Source of the DNA: a virus
IMG/VR virus record: IMGVR_UViG_3300042559_001107
Coordinates: 1-48,211 of that record
Strand: one strand, 5' to 3'
Length of the DNA: 48,211 nucleotides
This document shows positions 9,862 to 47,531 of the stretch, piece after piece. The notes beneath the pieces were generated by a model. It searched no databases. It was not told where the DNA came from and saw only the letters and a program-made list of their open reading frames with translations. Each line of letters starts with the position of its first letter. Position 1 is the first letter of the stretch. The position numbers and the translations under genes are program-made.

Positions 9862-10027
9862 AATGACCATTGATGAATGGATTCAGTACGGAATTGATAA
9901 GGGTTACTGTTCCGACGCAACGTGTGTTACCCATGAAGGGCTTCCTAATACCAAGGAAGAAGAACAGGCATGGGAAGACGGGTGGGACCCTTGCGTCCCC
10001 GGTATTCGACTTTGGATCAATGACTGA
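9848..10027 (+). CDS. Small conserved phage protein with CSDATCVTHEG motif
   Basis: 59 residues. The pattern IDKGYCSDATCVTHEGLP, then EEEQAWEDGWDPCVPGIRL, is one I recognise from many actinobacteriophage small proteins of unknown function, with three conserved cysteines and a histidine that could bind a metal. It overlaps the membrane protein gene upstream by 14 bp and the SNF2 helicase gene downstream by 8 bp (ATGACTGA), a tight translational coupling. Confidence 0.75.
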   Translation: MSGIEMTIDEWIQYGIDKGYCSDATCVTHEGLPNTKEEEQAWEDGWDPCVPGIRLWIND

Positions 10028-31880: not shown

Positions 31881-33209
31881 ATGACCGATATCTATCTCGC
31901 TGGCGCTGAGAATCCTACGCACCAGCAAATACTCGCCTCCTGCGCTGCTAGCCGGGTGGCCGTAAATGTGACCTCCCTGCTCCGTCGAAAGACGCTGACG
32001 TGGGAACTAGACCTCCCCTACCCTGATTGGGAATGGGTGGCTTATTGCGATGGTCCCGCTACTGCTGACGACCTTCACCTCGTCCTAGACAGGGCTTCTA
32101 AGCCCCCTGTGTGCGTCGTAGGGCCTCTCGCATGGGACGAATGGGATAACTACCTACCCCTTTGGAATGGCGAGGGAGATATCCCCCGAGATCGTCCGAA
32201 TGGTCTCGTCGTTACCGACCGGGTGTTCAAGGACAAAGCCCTGAACCGTCGAGCGCTTGCCGCACGAAGTGTTGGAACAACCCTTGGAGCGATTACAGGA
32301 AGTATCGATCCGGGTATCGGAAAATATGACCTAGTCATTTCCGGCTCATGGTGGTCATCGATGAAGTTCGGTGAGACTCAGGTGTGGGATGGCAAGAAGA
32401 TGCATCGGTACAATGCCGAACGGAAGAACGAAGTACGCTCCCGGCATACTGACCATATCGAATCCATGGGTATCGATATCGCTGGAATCCTCTTGGAAGA
32501 CTCCGACGAGATTGCTCGCCTAGCCATTACCAGTTGGCAACACTTCTCTGAAAACCTCTCAGGCGGTATCGTTATACCGCTACCACAAAGGTCTGAAGTA
32601 ACTATCGGGGGAGAAAGTATGGACGAGTTTCGCGGTTCCGAGGTCAATCTCCTTGATACGCGACCCCCTGAAGGGCGGCACCGAAAGGTTCTCCCGGTCA
32701 TGGGGATGTCCTCCATTACGTCTACAGAACGCCTTGGAGACGGTACTGAGATCATCGAAGAGCAGGCCATCGTCCGGGTTGTATCGGAAAGTATCAGGGC
32801 ATGCGATAACTGTTTCCTAGCGACCTCAGGGTGCCCCGGTTTCGTCCCCGGAGCCTCTTGCGCCTACTCCATCCCCGTAGAAATCCGGTCCAAGGATCAA
32901 TTGCAATCGGTCATGCAGTCGATGGTTGAACTACAGACCCAGCGAGTACTACAGGCCCGATTTGCCGAAGAAATCGCAGGTCAGGAACTTACGCCCGAGG
33001 TTGGCAAAGAGATGGATCGACTCTTCAACTCCATGGAGAAGATGCGAGACATCATGGACAACCGTGACACCGTGAAGATGACGGTAGAAGCACGAGGCCG
33101 CTCAGGTGTCTTGTCACGTCTCTTTGGAGACAAGGTTGGAACCAACGCCAAGATGTTGGCTCATCCTGTCGATTCTGAAGACGTGATCGACGCAATCATC
33201 GAAGAATGA
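31881..33209 (+). CDS. Conserved-looking phage protein with Cys cluster
   Basis: 442 residues. The N-terminal half is alpha/beta (DWEWVAYCDGPATADDL, YDLVISGSWW). From about residue 306 there is a cysteine cluster, CDNCFLATSGCPGF then CAYSIPVEIRSKDQ, followed by a helical tail with VEARGRSGVLSRLFGDK. I have the impression this C-terminal module occurs next to terminase genes in other actinobacteriophages, but cannot confirm it. Positions 32586-32607 carry a 22-bp sequence repeated just after its stop codon. Confidence 0.6.
   Translation: MTDIYLAGAENPTHQQILASCAASRVAVNVTSLLRRKTLTWELDLPYPDWEWVAYCDGPATADDLHLVLDRASKPPVCVVGPLAWDEWDNYLPLWNGEGDIPRDRPNGLVVTDRVFKDKALNRRALAARSVGTTLGAITGSIDPGIGKYDLVISGSWWSSMKFGETQVWDGKKMHRYNAERKNEVRSRHTDHIESMGIDIAGILLEDSDEIARLAITSWQHFSENLSGGIVIPLPQRSEVTIGGESMDEFRGSEVNLLDTRPPEGRHRKVLPVMGMSSITSTERLGDGTEIIEEQAIVRVVSESIRACDNCFLATSGCPGFVPGASCAYSIPVEIRSKDQLQSVMQSMVELQTQRVLQARFAEEIAGQELTPEVGKEMDRLFNSMEKMRDIMDNRDTVKMTVEARGRSGVLSRLFGDKVGTNAKMLAHPVDSEDVIDAIIEE
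32586..32607 (+). repeat. 22-bp direct repeat, copy 1
   Basis: Begins CAAAGGTCTG and ends AACTATCG. Identical to 33212-33233. This copy is inside the coding sequence of the 442-residue protein. Confidence 0.9.
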
Positions 33210-33253: not shown

Positions 33254-33484
33254 ATGGGTATGTATCGGGGAGTCTACGAAACCTCTTGGGGAGGAACGTG
33301 GTTTGCTTCCATCAAGAACGGCGGTATCCCGAGATATCTTGGAACCTTCAAGACACAAGAAAGCGCCGCCCGTGCATACGACGAGGCGGCGCTATCAATG
33401 CATGGACCGAAGGCCAAACTGAACTTCCCAGCGTTAACTGATGGCGATGAGAATGATGAAGAAGAAGCAGAACATGATGGCTGA
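33254..33484 (+). CDS. Stand-alone AP2/ERF-type DNA-binding domain protein
   Basis: 76 residues with ribosome site TAGGAG. Residues 4-60 are an AP2/ERF domain: [20 protein letters not shown], then [20 protein letters not shown] and a final LNFP. In plants this is a transcription-factor domain; in phages it usually accompanies HNH homing endonucleases. Here no nuclease domain remains, only a short acidic tail. It may be a regulator or a decayed homing-endonuclease remnant. Its last 51 bp overlap the convergent minus-strand gene. Confidence 0.85.
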
Positions 33485-33937: not shown

Positions 33938-36058
33938 TCAGACGAGGCCGATGAGCATCGATTCAAGTGCCCGAGGGATGTCGGACAGATCACCGATCTC
34001 GTATGCCTCGTCCATGCTGGTCCGCTTTGCCCACCGAGGTGATGGCACCATCTTGGTGCTGGCATCGCCGTCGTAGAAGAACAGCATGGAATGAATGTTG
34101 GAGTGCTTGTAGGGCACGAACGCTGCCATGTCGCTCCATTCGCCGTCGGTCATCACCATGACGATGTGGTGCTTCTTGGGGCGCTCTTCCCACAGCATGG
34201 CGGTGAATGCGTCCTTGGGGCATGTGCCGCCCGTGCAATTGAGGAACGGGATGTCGCTGGGTGACTCGTTGGTCCCCCACACGCTGTATGCACCGTGGTC
34301 GAACGCTGTCACCTCGCAGTCGATGCTGATTCGTTCGCAGGCGGTCTTGACGGCCCATGCCATGGCACCGAGCGCCGAGCCTGCGTACTTCATCGATCCC
34401 GAGACATCCAAGAACAACGAGACGGTGATGTCGGTACCGGGTTCGCCGTCTTCGGCCCATGAGCGGAATACTTCCATGTCACCGGGCTGACGGGTGCGGT
34501 ACCGGATCGGCTCCAGCACTCCACGTCGCTGCTGTGACTCCCAATGCGGGGCGCAGTCAGCGGTGGCGATGTTGAAGGCACGTTCGATGTCTTCGACCAT
34601 GGAAAGGGCCTTGGAACGATCTTCCTCGTCGGTGTTGGGGAAGCAGCCACCGAACTTCGGAAGGGAACCTTCGTCACAGTTGTACGCCTCGTTCATGGCG
34701 ACCACGTCGTCGTTGATCGTCTGATCGTTGGCGAGGTTGTCCAGCGCTTCGTCCAGCGCTTCGTTGACCTTCTCCATGGCCTCACGGCGTGCCTTATGGG
34801 AATCAAGGTCGAACTGGTAGTCGTCGCTGTGATCTCCAGCCTCGTCTCCAGCGGTCGTGCTTGAACCGGGAGCCGATGACTGAACGTCGCTGCTGGACTG
34901 TCCAGCGTCAGTCTCCTGCTCAGAACCTTCACCCTGCTCACCTTCGCCGGACTGTCCTTCAGCACCAGCGTCAGAGTCATCCTCGCCGTCAGCGTCGTCC
35001 TGCTTGCTGGCGATCTCCTGAGCACGCTCACCGGACTCCTTGAGGCGCTCAGAGCCACGCTGCACGTCCTCAGGACGGGTGCTGCCGGATTCCTTGGTCA
35101 TCTCGTTGTGGTTGTCGAAACCACCTACGGAGAGACTCTCCAGCATGACCCGCATGTCTTCGATGCACTCCATCATCGTCCAAGCGTTGTCAGCGACCAT
35201 GTAGCGGTCCACGACAGCCTTGATCGACTTCGACGGGACTCGCTTGTCGCTCTTGAATCCCTTGTCCCACATTGCACGGGAGGAGTCACGGACCTCGCTG
35301 GGGAGGTAATGACGACCGGCCACGAGTGCCCACGAAGTGTCGGCACCAGCGCCCATGAGCATGTTGCGGATCACGAGCACCGTGAGCATCGAAGCGATGA
35401 CCGGTGACTCCTCCACGAGGAGCATCTCCATGCGCTGATCTTCCAGCACGTTCCATGCCTTGTGGAATCCGGGGTCCACGTTCCAGCGCTTCCAGTTGTC
35501 GCCGGTATTCCCGACCTTCGCCTGCTGCTCGTGGAAGGTGTAGCCCTCTGCCTCAGCGATGTTGAGGAGTTCCTGAAGCGGCGTGGTGAAGAGGTTGTGT
35601 CCGACCTCGTGGTAGAAGACACCACGAGTCTCAGCGGCGATCTGACGGAGTTCTTCGATGGTCACCACAGAGTCTTCGTCTCTGCTGATGCGATTGGTCA
35701 GACGATGGTCGTGGGTGACCCGGATGCTCTTGAAGTCGGTCACGCCGGAGACCGACGAAGACGGGGTGATGCTCACCGGGAGGGAGATGCCCCACGAGTT
35801 CATCACGGCACTCAGACGAGGAGTCAGGCCGTTGGCGATCATGTTCGATCGCTTGTTCACTTCCTGACGTGTCTGACGGTATGCCGCACGATCAAGGTCC
35901 TGCTTGCCACGGACGATTCGTTCGACCTCGCGATTCGCTGCCTCACGAGCAAGAGCACGACGTGCGTTGCTGTGCTGCTGGCGAGCGATCTCACTGGCCC
36001 ACTTCTTCTGACGTGGCTTCCGGGTCTTCGGGATGGAGGTGTTGCTGGGATTGGTCAT
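33938..36058 (-). CDS. CobT-like protein: zinc metallopeptidase plus VWA domain
   Basis: 706 residues from ATG at 36058 (a further upstream ATG at 36094 is possible). After a basic N-terminus, HEVGH at 150-154 with LEDQRMEM from 205 forms a gluzincin-like site. An acidic linker (about 350-430, Glu/Asp/Ser/Gly) follows. The C-terminal VWA domain has the full MIDAS: DVSGSM at 551-556, a Thr near 612 and D638 (MTDGEW). This matches the CobT/VWA partners of MoxR-type ATPases. A MoxR/CobS-like gene diverges from it at 36462. The substrate is unknown; a chaperone or protease role in virion maturation or host takeover is inferred. Confidence 0.85.
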   Translation of the reverse strand: MTNPSNTSIPKTRKPRQKKWASEIARQQHSNARRALAREAANREVERIVRGKQDLDRAAYRQTRQEVNKRSNMIANGLTPRLSAVMNSWGISLPVSITPSSSVSGVTDFKSIRVTHDHRLTNRISRDEDSVVTIEELRQIAAETRGVFYHEVGHNLFTTPLQELLNIAEAEGYTFHEQQAKVGNTGDNWKRWNVDPGFHKAWNVLEDQRMEMLLVEESPVIASMLTVLVIRNMLMGAGADTSWALVAGRHYLPSEVRDSSRAMWDKGFKSDKRVPSKSIKAVVDRYMVADNAWTMMECIEDMRVMLESLSVGGFDNHNEMTKESGSTRPEDVQRGSERLKESGERAQEIASKQDDADGEDDSDAGAEGQSGEGEQGEGSEQETDAGQSSSDVQSSAPGSSTTAGDEAGDHSDDYQFDLDSHKARREAMEKVNEALDEALDNLANDQTINDDVVAMNEAYNCDEGSLPKFGGCFPNTDEEDRSKALSMVEDIERAFNIATADCAPHWESQQRRGVLEPIRYRTRQPGDMEVFRSWAEDGEPGTDITVSLFLDVSGSMKYAGSALGAMAWAVKTACERISIDCEVTAFDHGAYSVWGTNESPSDIPFLNCTGGTCPKDAFTAMLWEERPKKHHIVMVMTDGEWSDMAAFVPYKHSNIHSMLFFYDGDASTKMVPSPRWAKRTSMDEAYEIGDLSDIPRALESMLIGLV

Positions 36059-36121
36059 GTCTGTATTGAACGCACACTTTCCGAAACATTGCAAGACCTA
36101 ATATGGGATTTCTTAGGTGAT

Positions 36122-36163
36122 CAAGGATTTCGTCTCATTGCCCTCTATATGGCCCTGAGAGCG
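36122..36163 (+). repeat. Right-arm repeat A, copy 1
   Basis: Opens CAAGGATTTCGTCTCATTGC and ends GGCCCTGAGAGCG. Four further copies lie at 42436, 44331, 45610 and 47643. Confidence 0.85.
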
Positions 36164-36382
36164 ATTTGAGGCCTTTTCGGCCATAACCATACATATCGAT
36201 GTCTCGCAGGCGTTCTCAGGGCAACGGACCCGAAACGTGATTTCATCGGTCGATTCAAATAAGTCAATGAAATCAAGTACTTTCGCAATCGTAAAGCGTC
36301 GAAAACGCAACTTTTCGTTCTACGGACGAAACGGGGTTTCTGAGGGGTACGAAAGAAATTTGGCCCGATAGGAAGAAATGAC

Positions 36383-36412
36383 TTGCAATCGGTTTCGGAC
36401 TGTGCGCTTAAT
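36383..36412 (+). promoter_or_regulatory. Promoter of the MoxR operon
   Basis: TTGCAA (36383-36388), 18-bp spacer, CTTAAT (36407-36412). Preceded by AATGACTTG and sharing TGTGCGCTTAAT with the 42723 promoter. Confidence 0.7.
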
Positions 36413-36461
36413 ACTTGAGACCAATCCAACGCCCCACGGGGCAGCACCTCAGGAGTACGAC

Positions 36462-37733
36462 ATGACCACGAAGACCGCTCGCATGAAGGCTGGTGACACC
36501 TACCGTGTCCGAGCCGGAGAGTTCGCCGGACGAGAGGCACGGATCATCGATCCCAAGCCCTTCCCCGACAGCGACCTCAACCGTCGCCGCAAGATCACCG
36601 TCGAAGTTGAAGGTGACACGGTGTACCTCCTCCCCCGTCTCCTTGAGACCAACGTCGTCCCGCTGCACCAGTATCAGGCTCCTCAGCAGTCGCTCGGTGA
36701 CATCGCTATCCCTCACCCGGTGACCGGTGTCCCGGTCCTCATTCCCGGTGACATCACCGACGCTGACGATCCCCGCCTTGATCCATGGCGACCGGACCCC
36801 AAGGACCCGTCGATCAAGAAGTACGTCAACCGTGTGATGCCCAACGGCACGACCGACGTGGAGTTCCTCATGTCCTTCTACGACAAGAAGGAGAACGTCC
36901 TGCTCGTCGGTGACACTCAGTCCGGCAAGACGCTCATGGTGCAGGTGCTGGCGGTCCTCGCCGGTCAGAAGCGCCCGAGCGGCAAACCGCTCCCGGTGTT
37001 CACCCTTTCCGGTTCGTCCGGTGTGACCGACTTCGATCTCTTCGGTCAGCCGACCGCCTACACGACTCCCGAAGGTGGGGAGCGCCTTGTGTGGCTGCCG
37101 GGTGTGGTCGATCTCGCATGCCGAGTCGATGCCTGCCTCCTCTACATGGACGAGGTCAACATGATGAGCGAACGAGTCACGTCGTCGCTGCACTCGCTGT
37201 GTGACCACCGTCGGTCCTTCGTCAACCGCATGAAGGCTGTCCGGGTCGTCCATGAGGGCACCGAGACCTTCGTCCCCGAAACCGTCAAGGCATCGGATGG
37301 CATGTGGATCATCGGCACCATCAACCCGTCCGGCTACAAGGGTGCTTCGATGGGCGAGGCATTCCTGAACCGCTGGATTCACATTCCGTGGGGCTACGAC
37401 GAGTCCGTTGAGAAGAAGTTGATCCCGAGCGCCACCGTGCGTCTGCTTGGTCAGGCTCTCCGTGAGGCTCGTGCGACTCGTGCTCTCAACACGCCTATCG
37501 GTACCGCCGCTCTGAGCCGTCTGTGCGAGCAGATTCCCGAGTACGGAGTCGATACCTCGCTGTGGATGCTCACGGCAATGTTCACTCCTCAAGAGCAGCC
37601 GAAGGTCGAAGCGATCATTCAGGATCGGTCGATCAAGATGCTGCTGGAGGACGAGGTGGCTGCGCTCAATGCGCCAGTCGCACCGGCTGCCCAGCCGCTC
37701 ATCGATTCCTTCAATCCTGCGGAGCCGTTCTGA
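36462..37733 (+). CDS. MoxR/CobS-like AAA+ ATPase
   Basis: 423 residues from ATG at 36462 with AGGAG. The N-terminus (8-60) looks like a KOW/SH3-type barrel (MKAGDTYRVRAGEFAGREAR). The ATPase has Walker A GDTQSGKT at 150-157, Walker B LLYMDEVN from 227, and a sensor-like IIGTINPSG. The C-terminal lid is helical. MoxR ATPases remodel protein complexes together with VWA partners; here the partner is the divergent 706-residue VWA-metallopeptidase. The coding DNA is clearly G+C-richer than the replication operon. Confidence 0.88.
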   Translation: MTTKTARMKAGDTYRVRAGEFAGREARIIDPKPFPDSDLNRRRKITVEVEGDTVYLLPRLLETNVVPLHQYQAPQQSLGDIAIPHPVTGVPVLIPGDITDADDPRLDPWRPDPKDPSIKKYVNRVMPNGTTDVEFLMSFYDKKENVLLVGDTQSGKTLMVQVLAVLAGQKRPSGKPLPVFTLSGSSGVTDFDLFGQPTAYTTPEGGERLVWLPGVVDLACRVDACLLYMDEVNMMSERVTSSLHSLCDHRRSFVNRMKAVRVVHEGTETFVPETVKASDGMWIIGTINPSGYKGASMGEAFLNRWIHIPWGYDESVEKKLIPSATVRLLGQALREARATRALNTPIGTAALSRLCEQIPEYGVDTSLWMLTAMFTPQEQPKVEAIIQDRSIKMLLEDEVAALNAPVAPAAQPLIDSFNPAEPF

Positions 37734-38032: not shown

Positions 38033-38262
38033 ACATTCTTGATCACGACTCGTGCGGGTACGAACTAACGCTCGCCTCCTGCGACGAGACCTGTCAGACG
38101 TGCGTCACAATGGCTCACGAGGCCGCATACGACGCTTGCCGAGCAGGGTCTCGCAAGGCCGTGAAGTTCATGTACCTGACTGCTGATGACAACGCCGTGA
38201 CTCAGCACGAGGTGTTCGTGACCCGTCTCTACAAGGTCGATATCAGCGAGGAGCCGTTCTAA
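38029..38262 (+). CDS. Small Cys-containing hypothetical protein
   Basis: 77 residues, ATGA overlap upstream. SCDETCQTC gives three close cysteines, plus two more (C9, C37), possibly a metal site, followed by a beta-rich end. It is the last gene of the MoxR operon and faces a convergent minus-strand gene with a 4-bp overlap. Confidence 0.65.
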   Translation: MNILDHDSCGYELTLASCDETCQTCVTMAHEAAYDACRAGSRKAVKFMYLTADDNAVTQHEVFVTRLYKVDISEEPF

Positions 38263-38483
38263 GAACCAGCGGCCCGGTAGCGAGGACGAGGGTCCCTGCC
38301 CGGTGTAGCCCGACAGACTGCGGGATTACCTGATCCACGGATGAGGCGAGCGCCCTTCTCGTCAGGGTCGCAGATTGATCCACCACGGACGTACCGGATG
38401 GCTTCCTTGTGCTCTTCCTTCTTCTTGTTCTTCGCAAGGCTCTTCGGAGCAGGCTTACGAGAACCACGCTTCTGTTCACTCAT
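38259..38483 (-). CDS. Small basic minus-strand protein
   Basis: 74 residues from ATG at 38483. Lys/Arg-rich N-terminus (SEQKRGSRKPAPKSLAKNKK) and a more ordered C-terminus with RYVRGGSICDPDEKG. Similar short basic proteins are common in phages; DNA binding is plausible. It starts 28 bp from a divergent plus-strand gene and ends inside the MoxR operon's last stop. Confidence 0.6.
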   Translation of the reverse strand: MSEQKRGSRKPAPKSLAKNKKKEEHKEAIRYVRGGSICDPDEKGARLIRGSGNPAVCRATPGRDPRPRYRAAGS

Positions 38484-40596: not shown

Positions 40597-40856
40597 ACCA
40601 CGAAAGCGATACACCATCGACCGCTGATCTCTCTCTTGTACTTACCGATTGGTTCGAAGAAGAAGAAGACATGGGATACGGCACCATCCATTTCGCAGCA
40701 GAGCCGTATAGCCATGTATCGATATGCGGTCGTGAAGGATTCGCATACCAGTACTACTCATCTCTGACGCTCGCTGATGACCCATTGCTATGTGCTAGTT
40801 GTGAGGACATTGCTCGTAGGGTTATCGATGCGATTATCAGCGGGGAGACCAACTGA
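40593..40856 (+). CDS. Small hypothetical protein with Cys residues
   Basis: 87 residues, ATGA junction upstream. Acidic stretch EEEEDM, then IHFAAEPYSHVSICG and LLCASCEDIARRVID. The pattern (C-G-x, later C-x2-C) is similar to short actinobacterial zinc proteins. Function unknown. Confidence 0.65.
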   Translation: MNHESDTPSTADLSLVLTDWFEEEEDMGYGTIHFAAEPYSHVSICGREGFAYQYYSSLTLADDPLLCASCEDIARRVIDAIISGETN

Positions 40857-41272
40857 TGCAGACCTTCCTCCCATACCCATCGTTCCGATCCTCAGCGCAA
40901 TCGTTGGATCGACAACGCCTTGGAAAGCAACGTGTAGAGGTCTTGCAGATTCTCAACACTCTCAACAATCCCGAGGCAAAGGGCTGGCGCAATCATCCAG
41001 CCGTGAAGATGTGGAAAGGCCACGAAGGATGGCTCATGCATTACGGACTGGCCGTGTGCGACGAGTGGGTACTTCGTGGTTACAAGGACACTTGTGCTGG
41101 CAAGATCGCAGCGTTCAACCACCTTCGTGATCCCGAGCCGCCAGCATGGCTTGGAGACGCATCGCTTCACCTCAGTCACAAGAGCAACCTGCTTCGAAAG
41201 GCTCCCGAGCACTACGGACTCCTGTGGTCCGACGTGCCTGACGACCTCCCATATGTTTGGCCGGTGGCGTGA
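40856..41272 (+). CDS. MSMEG_6728-like protein (pyrimidine-dimer glycosylase-related)
   Basis: 138 residues. The opening MQTFLPYPSFRSSAQSLDRQ, RLGKQRVEVLQIL, then GWRNHPAVKMWKGHE and the end DDLPYVWPV match the actinobacterial MSMEG_6728 family, which is related to T4 endonuclease V-type pyrimidine-dimer excision proteins. It may take part in UV-damage repair of phage DNA, but the activity of this family is not established to my knowledge. Confidence 0.8.
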   Translation: MQTFLPYPSFRSSAQSLDRQRLGKQRVEVLQILNTLNNPEAKGWRNHPAVKMWKGHEGWLMHYGLAVCDEWVLRGYKDTCAGKIAAFNHLRDPEPPAWLGDASLHLSHKSNLLRKAPEHYGLLWSDVPDDLPYVWPVA

Positions 41273-42435: not shown

Positions 42436-42477
42436 CAAGGATTTCGTCTCATTGCCCCCTATATGGCCCTGAGAGCG
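42436..42477 (+). repeat. Right-arm repeat A, copy 2
   Basis: Nearly identical to 36122-36163 (CAAGGATTTCG...CCCTGAGAGCG, one substitution seen in the CCC-CT stretch). Confidence 0.9.
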
Positions 42478-42492
42478 CCTCGCACCCCTGAA

Positions 42493-42787: not shown

Positions 42788-43177
42788 ATGTCAGAATCAA
42801 TCGGAACCATCGCCCAGTTCAATGCCGACCTTGAGTTCTACGGCAGCGACGAGGTCAAGGAATGGAAGGAACGCCGAAGCGCAGTACCGACCATCGGAGC
42901 CATCTTGGACGAAACCGGAACCATCGTCTCCATCACGCTCAACGGCGTGGAGGTCGCTCAACTGAGCGCCGATTACTACCGGGACGGATCGTTCAAGGGC
43001 CTGATCTCACAGCGTGTGAAGTACGCCGTCGTGAATCACGACATGCCCGAATTCCCGTTCACGACGAACAGCCTCTCCGTTGGGAGCGTCTCGCTTTCAT
43101 CCGAACACGTCGTCCACGAGGTCTCCCTCCCGGTGCTCCGGGCGCTCTCCACGGCATCGGGGGTCGCTACCGACTGA
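42788..43177 (+). CDS. Hypothetical protein, single-gene cassette
   Basis: 129 residues with ribosome site GGAGG. Alpha/beta sequence (IGAILDETGTIVSITLNGVE, then SLSSEHVVHEVSLPVLRALS). No family recognised. It has its own promoter and terminator, so it is expressed as a monocistronic unit like its right-hand neighbours. Confidence 0.7.
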   Translation: MSESIGTIAQFNADLEFYGSDEVKEWKERRSAVPTIGAILDETGTIVSITLNGVEVAQLSADYYRDGSFKGLISQRVKYAVVNHDMPEFPFTTNSLSVGSVSLSSEHVVHEVSLPVLRALSTASGVATD

Positions 43178-44330: not shown

Positions 44331-44372
44331 CAAGGATTTCGTCTCATTGCCTCCTGTATGCCCCTGAGAGCG
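44331..44372 (+). repeat. Right-arm repeat A, copy 3
   Basis: CAAGGATTTCGTCTCATTGC then CTCCTGTATGCCCCTGAGAGCG. Preceded by GGTAT...ATACC (44303-44322) and TCGATATC. Confidence 0.85.
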
Positions 44373-44456
44373 CCTCGTGGGGGTGGTCGGGTATATACCC
44401 CCCACCCGAGTGCTGGGAGGCCCTCACAGGGCCATACAGGCAGGGGTTCGAAAGGC

Positions 44457-45609: not shown

Positions 45610-45660
45610 CAAGGCTTTCGCTCACTTGCCCTGAGAGGCCCCTGTATGGCCCTGAGAGCG
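45610..45660 (+). repeat. Right-arm repeat A, copy 4 (expanded)
   Basis: CAAGGCTTTCG at the left and TATGGCCCTGAGAGCG at the right as in other copies, with an extra CTGAGAGGCC segment inside. Confidence 0.75.
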
Positions 45661-45759
45661 CCTCGTGGCCCTTCCGGCCACTCTCACCCATATCGATTCC
45701 TCTCAGAGCCTCTCAGGGGAAAGGGCACGAAATGCTTTATTGCCTATCGACGTGCAAAT

Positions 45760-45989: not shown

Positions 45990-47531
45990 ATGACCAACAT
46001 CCTTGACTCACTTCTCAGCACCGCCGCTGCCAAGGGCGCTGTCGATGGCTTCATCGATCACGCTCGTGCCACCAGCACGTTCGACGGCACCGTCACCACG
46101 CCGACCGAGGGTTTCGTGCTCCCGGTCGCTCCGGCCACCAAGACGCTGTACGCCTACCAGCAGGCCGCTGTTGAGATGATCCTCAACCAGCGCCGTGTCC
46201 TGCTGGGTCTCCAGCCCGGTCTTGGCAAGACGGCCATCATGCAGGCCGCTGCTGCCGCTCTCGCTGCCGAGGGCAAGCGCTCCGTCATCGTCGTGCCCCC
46301 GTCACTTCGCATCTCCCCATGGGCCAACGAATTCGCAATCGACTTCCCTCACCTGTCGGTCGCACTCGTGTCCGGCACCAAGGCCGCAGCGTTCCCCGAG
46401 GCCGACGTGGTGATCGTGCCCGACTCCGTCCTCGCCCAGCGCATCGCTGATGTCGAAGCGTTCGCTCCCGATGCCGTGTTTGTCGATGAGGCCCACCGCT
46501 TCAAGAGCCGTGATGCGAAGCGCTCCAAGGCTCTCAAGGCATTCGCCGCCACCCTCGCTGCCGACGCTGTCGTCGTCATGGCTACCGGCACGCTCGTGTC
46601 GAATCGCATCATCGACGTGTACCAGCCGCTGTCGATCACGGGCAACGACAACGCCAAGGCCGTCTCCGGTGGATCGTCCTACAGCGTGTTCCTTGACCGC
46701 TGGTGCGAGACCGAACTCGTGTGGACCGGTCGTGCGAACATCCTCGTTGCCACGGGTGCGAAGGACCCTGAGGGCCTCCGTGCGGCTCTCACGAGCACCT
46801 GCATGATCTCAGTGCCTCGCGAGGACGTGCTTGATCTCCCGGCCCGCACCACCGCCGTACGTTCGCTCGTGCTCAACGGTGACGCTGCGAACTACCGCCG
46901 CATGGAGAAGAACTTCCTCTCATGGGTGCGCGAGACCAAGGGCGACGCTGCTCTCGCTCGTGCGGCCAAGGCCGAAGCGATCACCAAGTTGATGGCGCTG
47001 TGGGAGGCCGACGGTCTCGCCAAGGTGAAGGCAGCAACCGAGTACACCACCTCGCTCACCTCTCAGGGCGAGCAGGTCGTGCTCATGGCTCACCACAAGA
47101 GCGTCGTCCTCGCCATGTACGAAGCGCTGCTGGCCGAGGGCCTCAAGGTCGGTGCGATCATCGGCGGCATGTCGTCCGAAGCGAAGGCCGAGGTTGTCGA
47201 TGCGTTTCAGGCTGGCAACCTCGATGTCGTCATCGGCAACATCGAAGCGGCTGGCACTGGCCTCACGCTCACCGCTGCCCGTCACCTCGCCTTCGTGCAA
47301 CTCCCATGGGCACCGGGCACCTACGGACAGGCCGCTGACCGCATCTACCGAATTGGTCAAGAGCGTCACGTCACGACCCACGTTCTCAACATGAACGAGG
47401 GCGTGTCCGAGCACCTGTGGAACGTCCTCCAGTCGAAGGTCGCCGTGGCCGATGCGATCAACACCGGCACCGCCACCACCATCGACTTCGACAGCGTTCA
47501 AGAGGCCGTGCTGGAGTCCTACGGCTGGTGA
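45990..47531 (+). CDS. Second SNF2-family helicase
   Basis: 513 residues. LYAYQQAAVEMIL starts the motor; Walker A GLGKTA at 77-82, DEAH at 166-169, and C-terminal GQAADRIYRIGQER as motif VI. The compact form resembles SMARCAL1/annealing-helicase-like SNF2 proteins found in many phages. It is an independent cassette with its own promoter and terminator and is much more G+C-rich than the other SNF2 gene at 10020. This suggests a separate origin. Confidence 0.88.
   Translation: MTNILDSLLSTAAAKGAVDGFIDHARATSTFDGTVTTPTEGFVLPVAPATKTLYAYQQAAVEMILNQRRVLLGLQPGLGKTAIMQAAAAALAAEGKRSVIVVPPSLRISPWANEFAIDFPHLSVALVSGTKAAAFPEADVVIVPDSVLAQRIADVEAFAPDAVFVDEAHRFKSRDAKRSKALKAFAATLAADAVVVMATGTLVSNRIIDVYQPLSITGNDNAKAVSGGSSYSVFLDRWCETELVWTGRANILVATGAKDPEGLRAALTSTCMISVPREDVLDLPARTTAVRSLVLNGDAANYRRMEKNFLSWVRETKGDAALARAAKAEAITKLMALWEADGLAKVKAATEYTTSLTSQGEQVVLMAHHKSVVLAMYEALLAEGLKVGAIIGGMSSEAKAEVVDAFQAGNLDVVIGNIEAAGTGLTLTAARHLAFVQLPWAPGTYGQAADRIYRIGQERHVTTHVLNMNEGVSEHLWNVLQSKVAVADAINTGTATTIDFDSVQEAVLESYGW

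Follow-up and report, generated by a model that had tools for sequence, protein, structure and literature searches.

We analysed a 48,211-base IMG/VR virus contig (record IMGVR_UViG_3300042559_001107), hereafter the window, which is a fragment of a viral genome. The window carries two neighboring genes that encode a MoxR-like AAA+ ATPase and a partner protein combining a metallopeptidase-like site with a VWA domain and its metal ion-dependent adhesion site (MIDAS). In the viruses surveyed here the pairing of the two genes is obligate, and the residues of the zinc-peptidase-like site are invariant. The pair may form an ATP-driven two-protein machine, in which a ring remodels a target and the predicted zinc site cuts it while the infecting phage takes over the cell or replicates. 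We give this proposal an even chance. The coordinates, lengths, HEVGH motif, MIDAS, P-loop ATPase and 403-bp gap are all as described in a first-pass annotation made from the sequence alone. The two genes and the region between them are as follows.

33938–36058, minus strand: metallopeptidase-like and VWA/MIDAS protein of 706 residues; open reading frame with its ATG at 36058, homologs in 40/40 viral ATPase clusters.
36462–37733, plus strand: MoxR-like AAA+ ATPase (AAA_5) of 423 residues; Pfam AAA_5 match at 2.5e-11, over cut-off; midasin/CbbQ/NorQ by profile.
36059–36461, no strand: divergent intergenic region of 403 bp, holding a module that is repeated elsewhere in the window.

An alternative in-frame ATG of the ATPase lies upstream, at 36378; the start at 36462 is backed by relatives.

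Profile scans of viral contigs returned 54 ATPase loci and 42 partner loci. The survey set, 66 loci with the window included, was reduced to 40 ATPase clusters at 90% identity. The partner adjoins the ATPase in all 54 ATPase loci. At the cluster level, the genes are adjacent in 40 of 40 cases (17 divergent, 21 in tandem with the order ATPase-partner and 2 in tandem with the order partner-ATPase). Where no ATPase was detected beside a partner gene, the locus was a contig end; the one exception is L114, where a CobS-like ATPase adjoins. The first-pass annotation had proposed to look for the pair in other phages and for relatives carrying only one of the genes; on gene content, every viral ATPase cluster was paired and the reading was not refuted. 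It had also presented the pair as divergent. This holds for the window and for 17/40 clusters, not as a trait of the system, since 23/40 are tandem. On the ATPase tree, the divergent order is clustered, with two changes versus 13.8 in shuffles. Pairs of an ATPase and an HExxH-VWA protein were also seen on plasmids of Pseudonocardia (L118:4285-7079) and Halomicrobium (L119:4875-7706). No homologs of the ATPase were found in bacterial or archaeal genome contigs at the sensitivity used.

The features of the partner protein are listed below.

35597–35611, minus strand: HEVGH zinc-site motif, residues 150–154; H150, E151 and H154 invariant in 40/40 clusters.
35426–35446, minus strand: LEDQRME, residues 205–211, region of the probable third zinc ligand (E206); E206, D207 and E211 invariant in 40/40 clusters.
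34394–34408, minus strand: MIDAS DxSxS (DVSGS), residues 551–555; D551, S553 and S555 in 38/38.
34223–34225, minus strand: MIDAS T612; 38/38.
34142–34150, minus strand: MIDAS TDG, residues 637–639; T637 and D638 in 38/38.
34439–34555, minus strand: conserved segment 502–540 directly preceding the VWA core, a candidate for a pore "finger"; P504, W506, G513 and G526 in 37–38 of 38 complete sequences.

The MIDAS counts cover 38 of the 40 clusters, the two remaining proteins being gapped or truncated at the MIDAS. With the zinc-site residues kept in every cluster and the MIDAS residues in all 38, the motifs of the pair are not chance occurrences. All 40 clusters show the sequence signature of zincins, an HExxH motif with a distal acidic ligand, and the zinc-binding glutamate within LEDQRME is probably E206. 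Pfam gave nothing over cut-off for the partner; CobT_C (PF11775) was sub-threshold (0.063, 13.4 bits versus a cut-off of 21). The domain assignments therefore rest on motif conservation, the AlphaFold model and Foldseek. The single-chain AlphaFold model has a mean predicted local distance difference test score (pLDDT) of 75.5 and a predicted TM-score (pTM) of 0.68. Its first Foldseek matches in the PDB are the human MDN1-MIDAS (9e-7) and the NorQD complex (2e-5). The model further matches many and varied viral VWA proteins, those of haloarchaeal and Gordonia viruses among them. A search for PDB relatives by single sequence found none, and by profile gave acidic-linker noise and one weak VWA-type match. 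Segment 502–540 was aligned with the matching CobT segment by profile comparison; it has low confidence in the single-chain model.

The ATPase has complete Walker motifs; the residues given as invariant below are so among 13 aligned sequences.

36909–36932, plus strand: Walker A GDTQSGKT, residues 150–157; G150, T152, Q153, G155 and K156 invariant.
37137–37154, plus strand: Walker B (YMDE), ending D230-E231; D230 and E231 invariant.
37323–37325, plus strand: putative Sensor 1, N288; invariant.
37371–37373, plus strand: R304, candidate arginine finger; invariant.

Among PDB entries, its profile matches midasin as well as CbbQ and NorQ. The idea of a phage-encoded remodelling or proteolysis machine, put forward in the first-pass annotation, is thus supported by the obligate pairing, by the invariant catalytic residues and by the fold match to MDN1-MIDAS and NorQD.

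An SF2 helicase gene lies inside the flanks fetched around the pair in 23/23 tandem clusters. For 48/48 of these linked helicases, the best match in the window is the helicase at 45990, ahead of the one at 9870. The window helicase shares a short element with the ATPase gene.

45990–47531, plus strand: SF2/SNF2-type helicase, ortholog of the pair-linked helicase in relatives; Pfam Helicase_C and SNF2.
36377–36385, plus strand: AATGACTTG, putative promoter-like element common to the ATPase, the open reading frame at 42788 and the helicase at 45990.

Only three exact copies of AATGACTTG occur in the window, all on the plus strand and roughly 60–80 nt upstream of start codons. They are surrounded by larger repeated modules. 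The repeated intergenic module is found at 36122–36235, 42436–42482, 44331–44377 and 45619–45732. Its copy at 45617–45737 folds as a strong hairpin (z -3.8), and the copy at 36120–36240 folds less strongly (z -0.8 on the plus strand, -2.3 on the minus strand). Rigid promoter patterns with fixed spacers gave no match, so that only the short element holds, and a sigma-70 and terminator scan of the intergenic region stayed at or below chance.

In the divergent clusters, a Ku gene is found near the ATPase in 13 of 17 cases (for instance L009:9845-10663; Pfam Ku 6.6e-15), the subclade of the window itself not being among them. The pair adjoins gp46 and gp45/44 in syn9; its neighbors are ligase and DnaE in nickie, and ligase and DNA polymerase in SSU5; a primase gene is near the pair in ICP2. 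In halovirus Hardycor1, the pair belongs to a replication/accessory module (PMC7911831). The literature searched gave nothing on the expression timing of cyanophage cobS. Because the context comprises SF2 helicase, clamp, ligase, polymerase and primase genes, it makes a role in the replication phase likelier than one in virion assembly.

By analogy, the pair most likely works like NorQD or midasin, with a ring that would twist a VWA partner carrying a zinc-peptidase-like domain. In NorQD structures, the VWA finger penetrates the ring pore and a twisting model is supported (PMC13036017). Here, the MoxR-class ATPase would assemble as a ring. Much as NorD docks on NorQ, the 706-residue partner would bind this ring via its VWA domain and insert a conserved finger-like segment into the pore. 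Hydrolysis of ATP would then turn or pull the partner against the target, which the MIDAS would grip, and the N-terminal zinc-peptidase-like site, presumed to bind zinc and to act as a peptidase, would couple this remodelling to a specific cut. Since the zinc-peptidase-like site is intact, unlike in NorD or genuine CobT, remodelling combined with a specific cut is the likely outcome. Its time of action would be the take-over or replication phase, and not virion assembly.

Several observations weigh against this proposal. The N-terminal domain of the partner matches no named peptidase family, and the literature searched contains no experiment demonstrating proteolysis or zinc binding in any member. 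Segment 502–540 is poorly ordered and not folded in the single-chain AlphaFold model, so the finger is put forward as a proposal only. HExxH was lost in nickie and in L114 (isolate BUCTxx99 is 92% identical to L114). Because both lineages keep the pair, the zinc site is dispensable in some phages. As to the replication link, the helicase of the window is 8 kb from the pair, and none of this kind was seen in the 12-kb flanks that were fetched for isolates L001-L003. The gene context could also be inherited synteny, and shared ancestry of gene order limits what can be drawn from it.

The losses of HExxH in a few phage relatives, together with its absence from NorD-like and CobT proteins, could mean that the pair is a pure remodelling chaperone whose zinc site is structural or vestigial. 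We consider this unlikely, since the two histidines, the glutamate and the distal acidic residues are strictly invariant over 40 clusters, and these include E151, a glutamate that a structural zinc does not need. The pair might instead be a chaperone for virion assembly that also processes structural proteins. Such a role was proposed in jumbo phages after the model of the Acidianus two-tailed virus tail, with citation of the work on that virus (PMC7824862). It was also among the targets named in the first-pass annotation. However, in unrelated phages the pair is flanked by genes for replication and recombination, and the halovirus pair sits within a replication/accessory module; the gene context thus disfavors virion assembly, which we hold to be distinctly unlikely here. 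A third possibility is that the pair serves host takeover or counter-defence by taking apart a specific complex of the host, with the zinc site cleaving a host protein. Host defence was likewise a target named in the first-pass annotation. This would fit the motifs and the non-structural location, and one paper reports MoxR and vWA proteins among those of conflict systems (PMC7159879). Nevertheless, the pair is conserved across very diverse phages and linked to replication, unlike patchy counter-defence genes, and PADLOC gave one weak match for the ATPase (mad8, 0.0038) and none for the partner. We find this reading quite improbable.

Distant relatives of the pair are annotated as CobS/CobT, CobT-like or porphyrin biosynthesis proteins. 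Related pairs of haloarchaeal and other tailed viruses have been called CobST and interpreted as viral cobalamin-synthesis genes, with the proposal that they use the CobN of the host (PMC8651126). Consistent with this, profile comparison relates the C-terminal half of the partner, with its VWA domain and candidate finger, to CobT (E 2e-6), and the CobT family PF06213 matches some other phage proteins, such as that of SSU5. On the other hand, PF06213 was found in 0/16 phage records of the set versus 8/8 cobaltochelatase-bearing genomes used as a positive control. Neither CobN nor the ribonucleotide reductase family gave a match over cut-off in the same 16 records, most of which are fragments; a host CobN could still be used. 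The ATPase has no match to the NCBIfam CobS equivalog (TIGR01650) up to E 0.1. Moreover, HExxH is absent from 8/8 genuine CobT proteins examined, whereas the phage clade keeps it in 40/40 clusters. These observations suggest that the cobalamin metal-insertion label does not fit this pair. Metal insertion in the CobST sense, another target named in the first-pass annotation, failed on these comparisons, with no CobT or CobS family match for the pair and no CobN over cut-off in the 16 records. We therefore consider it very improbable that the pair works with a host CobN in placing cobalt into the corrin ring, thereby raising the supply of cobalamin.

When the profile of the N-terminal domain was compared directly to that of genuine CobT, the result was not significant (score 18.3, shuffle maximum 20.6). 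The SSU5 protein matches PF06213 with 130 bits and yet carries HEVAH. It thus bridges the two: the zinc-site domain and the N-terminal family of CobT appear to form a single family, in which genuine CobT has lost the site. HExxH was sought in a small, non-random sample of "CobT-like/peptidase" phage proteins from 11 isolated phages and contig L114. Two Staphylococcus G1 open reading frames were left out, as they have no HExxH and only one has a DxSxS match. The motif was found in 10 of 12: syn9, MED4-213, RHph_Y2_11, SSU5, ICP2, Woes, CRP-810, Cantare, FlyingTortilla and DSL-LC01. Two cyanophages that were checked have HEVGH with LEDARIE or TEDIRIE.

Besides the pair, the window encodes DnaB helicase, primase, PolI, UvsX, tail-fibre, holin and WhiB proteins. 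Because the closest full-length relatives of PolI are in Streptomyces phages and a WhiB gene is present, an actinobacterial host is likely. The first-pass annotation had suggested the membrane protein at 33434 as a third part of the machine. Homologs of it were confined to the three nearest viral loci, of which two gave identical matches, and isolated phages yielded none. At this position, a different transmembrane open reading frame stands in two further divergent loci, and the remaining divergent loci have none. We rejected the membrane protein as a general third component, since it is confined to the closest relatives. Four other features of the region were recorded.

33254–33484, plus strand: AP2-domain-like fragment resembling parts of HNH endonucleases; overlaps the opposite-strand open reading frame of the membrane protein.
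31881–33209, plus strand: 442-residue protein with invariant cysteines 308, 311, 318 and 327; near the pair in 18 loci.
38259–38483, minus strand: small lysine-rich open reading frame without a family match; a core of about 46 residues is kept in 15 loci.
40856–41272, plus strand: pyrimidine dimer DNA glycosylase, Pfam 5.9e-27.

A structure search with the 442-residue protein gave no PDB match at E 0.001; consequently, the "dpdA-like" label carried by a Streptomyces phage relative was not confirmed. In Roseobacter phage CRP-810, a gene annotated much like this glycosylase is found close to the pair.

The pair is already known as a kind, to which the window adds a member with divergent gene order. 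Three points were absent from the literature searched: the obligate pairing over 40 clusters, the invariance of the zinc site as opposed to genuine CobT, and the consistent link with replication genes. The core gene set of T4-like cyanophages includes cobS (PMC3037559). Tentatively, and with more doubt than confidence, we suggest that most phage "CobS/CobT" pairs, including cyanophage cobS with its "peptidase" neighbor, are not B12 genes. They would instead encode a metallopeptidase machine, driven by ATP, which removes or processes a protein complex where the phage genome replicates; on this view, genuine CobT and NorD are relatives whose active site was lost. If the zinc site is functional, the CobS/CobT annotations need revision and these phages carry an unstudied ATP-driven protease.

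Comparison with known systems places the pair among AAA+ and VWA partnerships. It shares this architecture with CobS/CobT, as well as the relationship of the VWA half and candidate finger to CobT. It differs by the intact HExxH of the phage partner, by the lack of a PF06213 or CobS family match and by the absence of CobN from the records. With NorQ/NorD (and CbbQ/CbbO), it has in common a MoxR ring (a predicted one in the phage pair), a VWA partner with a MIDAS and the fold match to the NorQD complex. However, the NorD-like proteins examined have no zinc site, and the known targets of these systems are cellular enzymes. An amidase-adjacent NorD-like group has no HExxH but an EDARVE motif, and its N-terminal domain (profile score 34.7, shuffle maximum 23.9) appears to be a degenerate relative of the phage domain. 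Midasin/Rea1 (MDN1) resembles the pair in its AAA_5 ATPase sequence and MIDAS fold, but is a single giant chain, and we know of no peptidase site in it. The closest description concerns group 2.2 jumbo phages, where a MoxR ATPase is paired with a vWA protein bearing an N-terminal metallopeptidase domain (PMC7824862); the likeness is drawn from that description. By comparison, the viral records studied here reach about 120 kb and are not jumbo, the genes are divergent in part of the family, and the context is linked to replication, whereas a virion role was proposed there.

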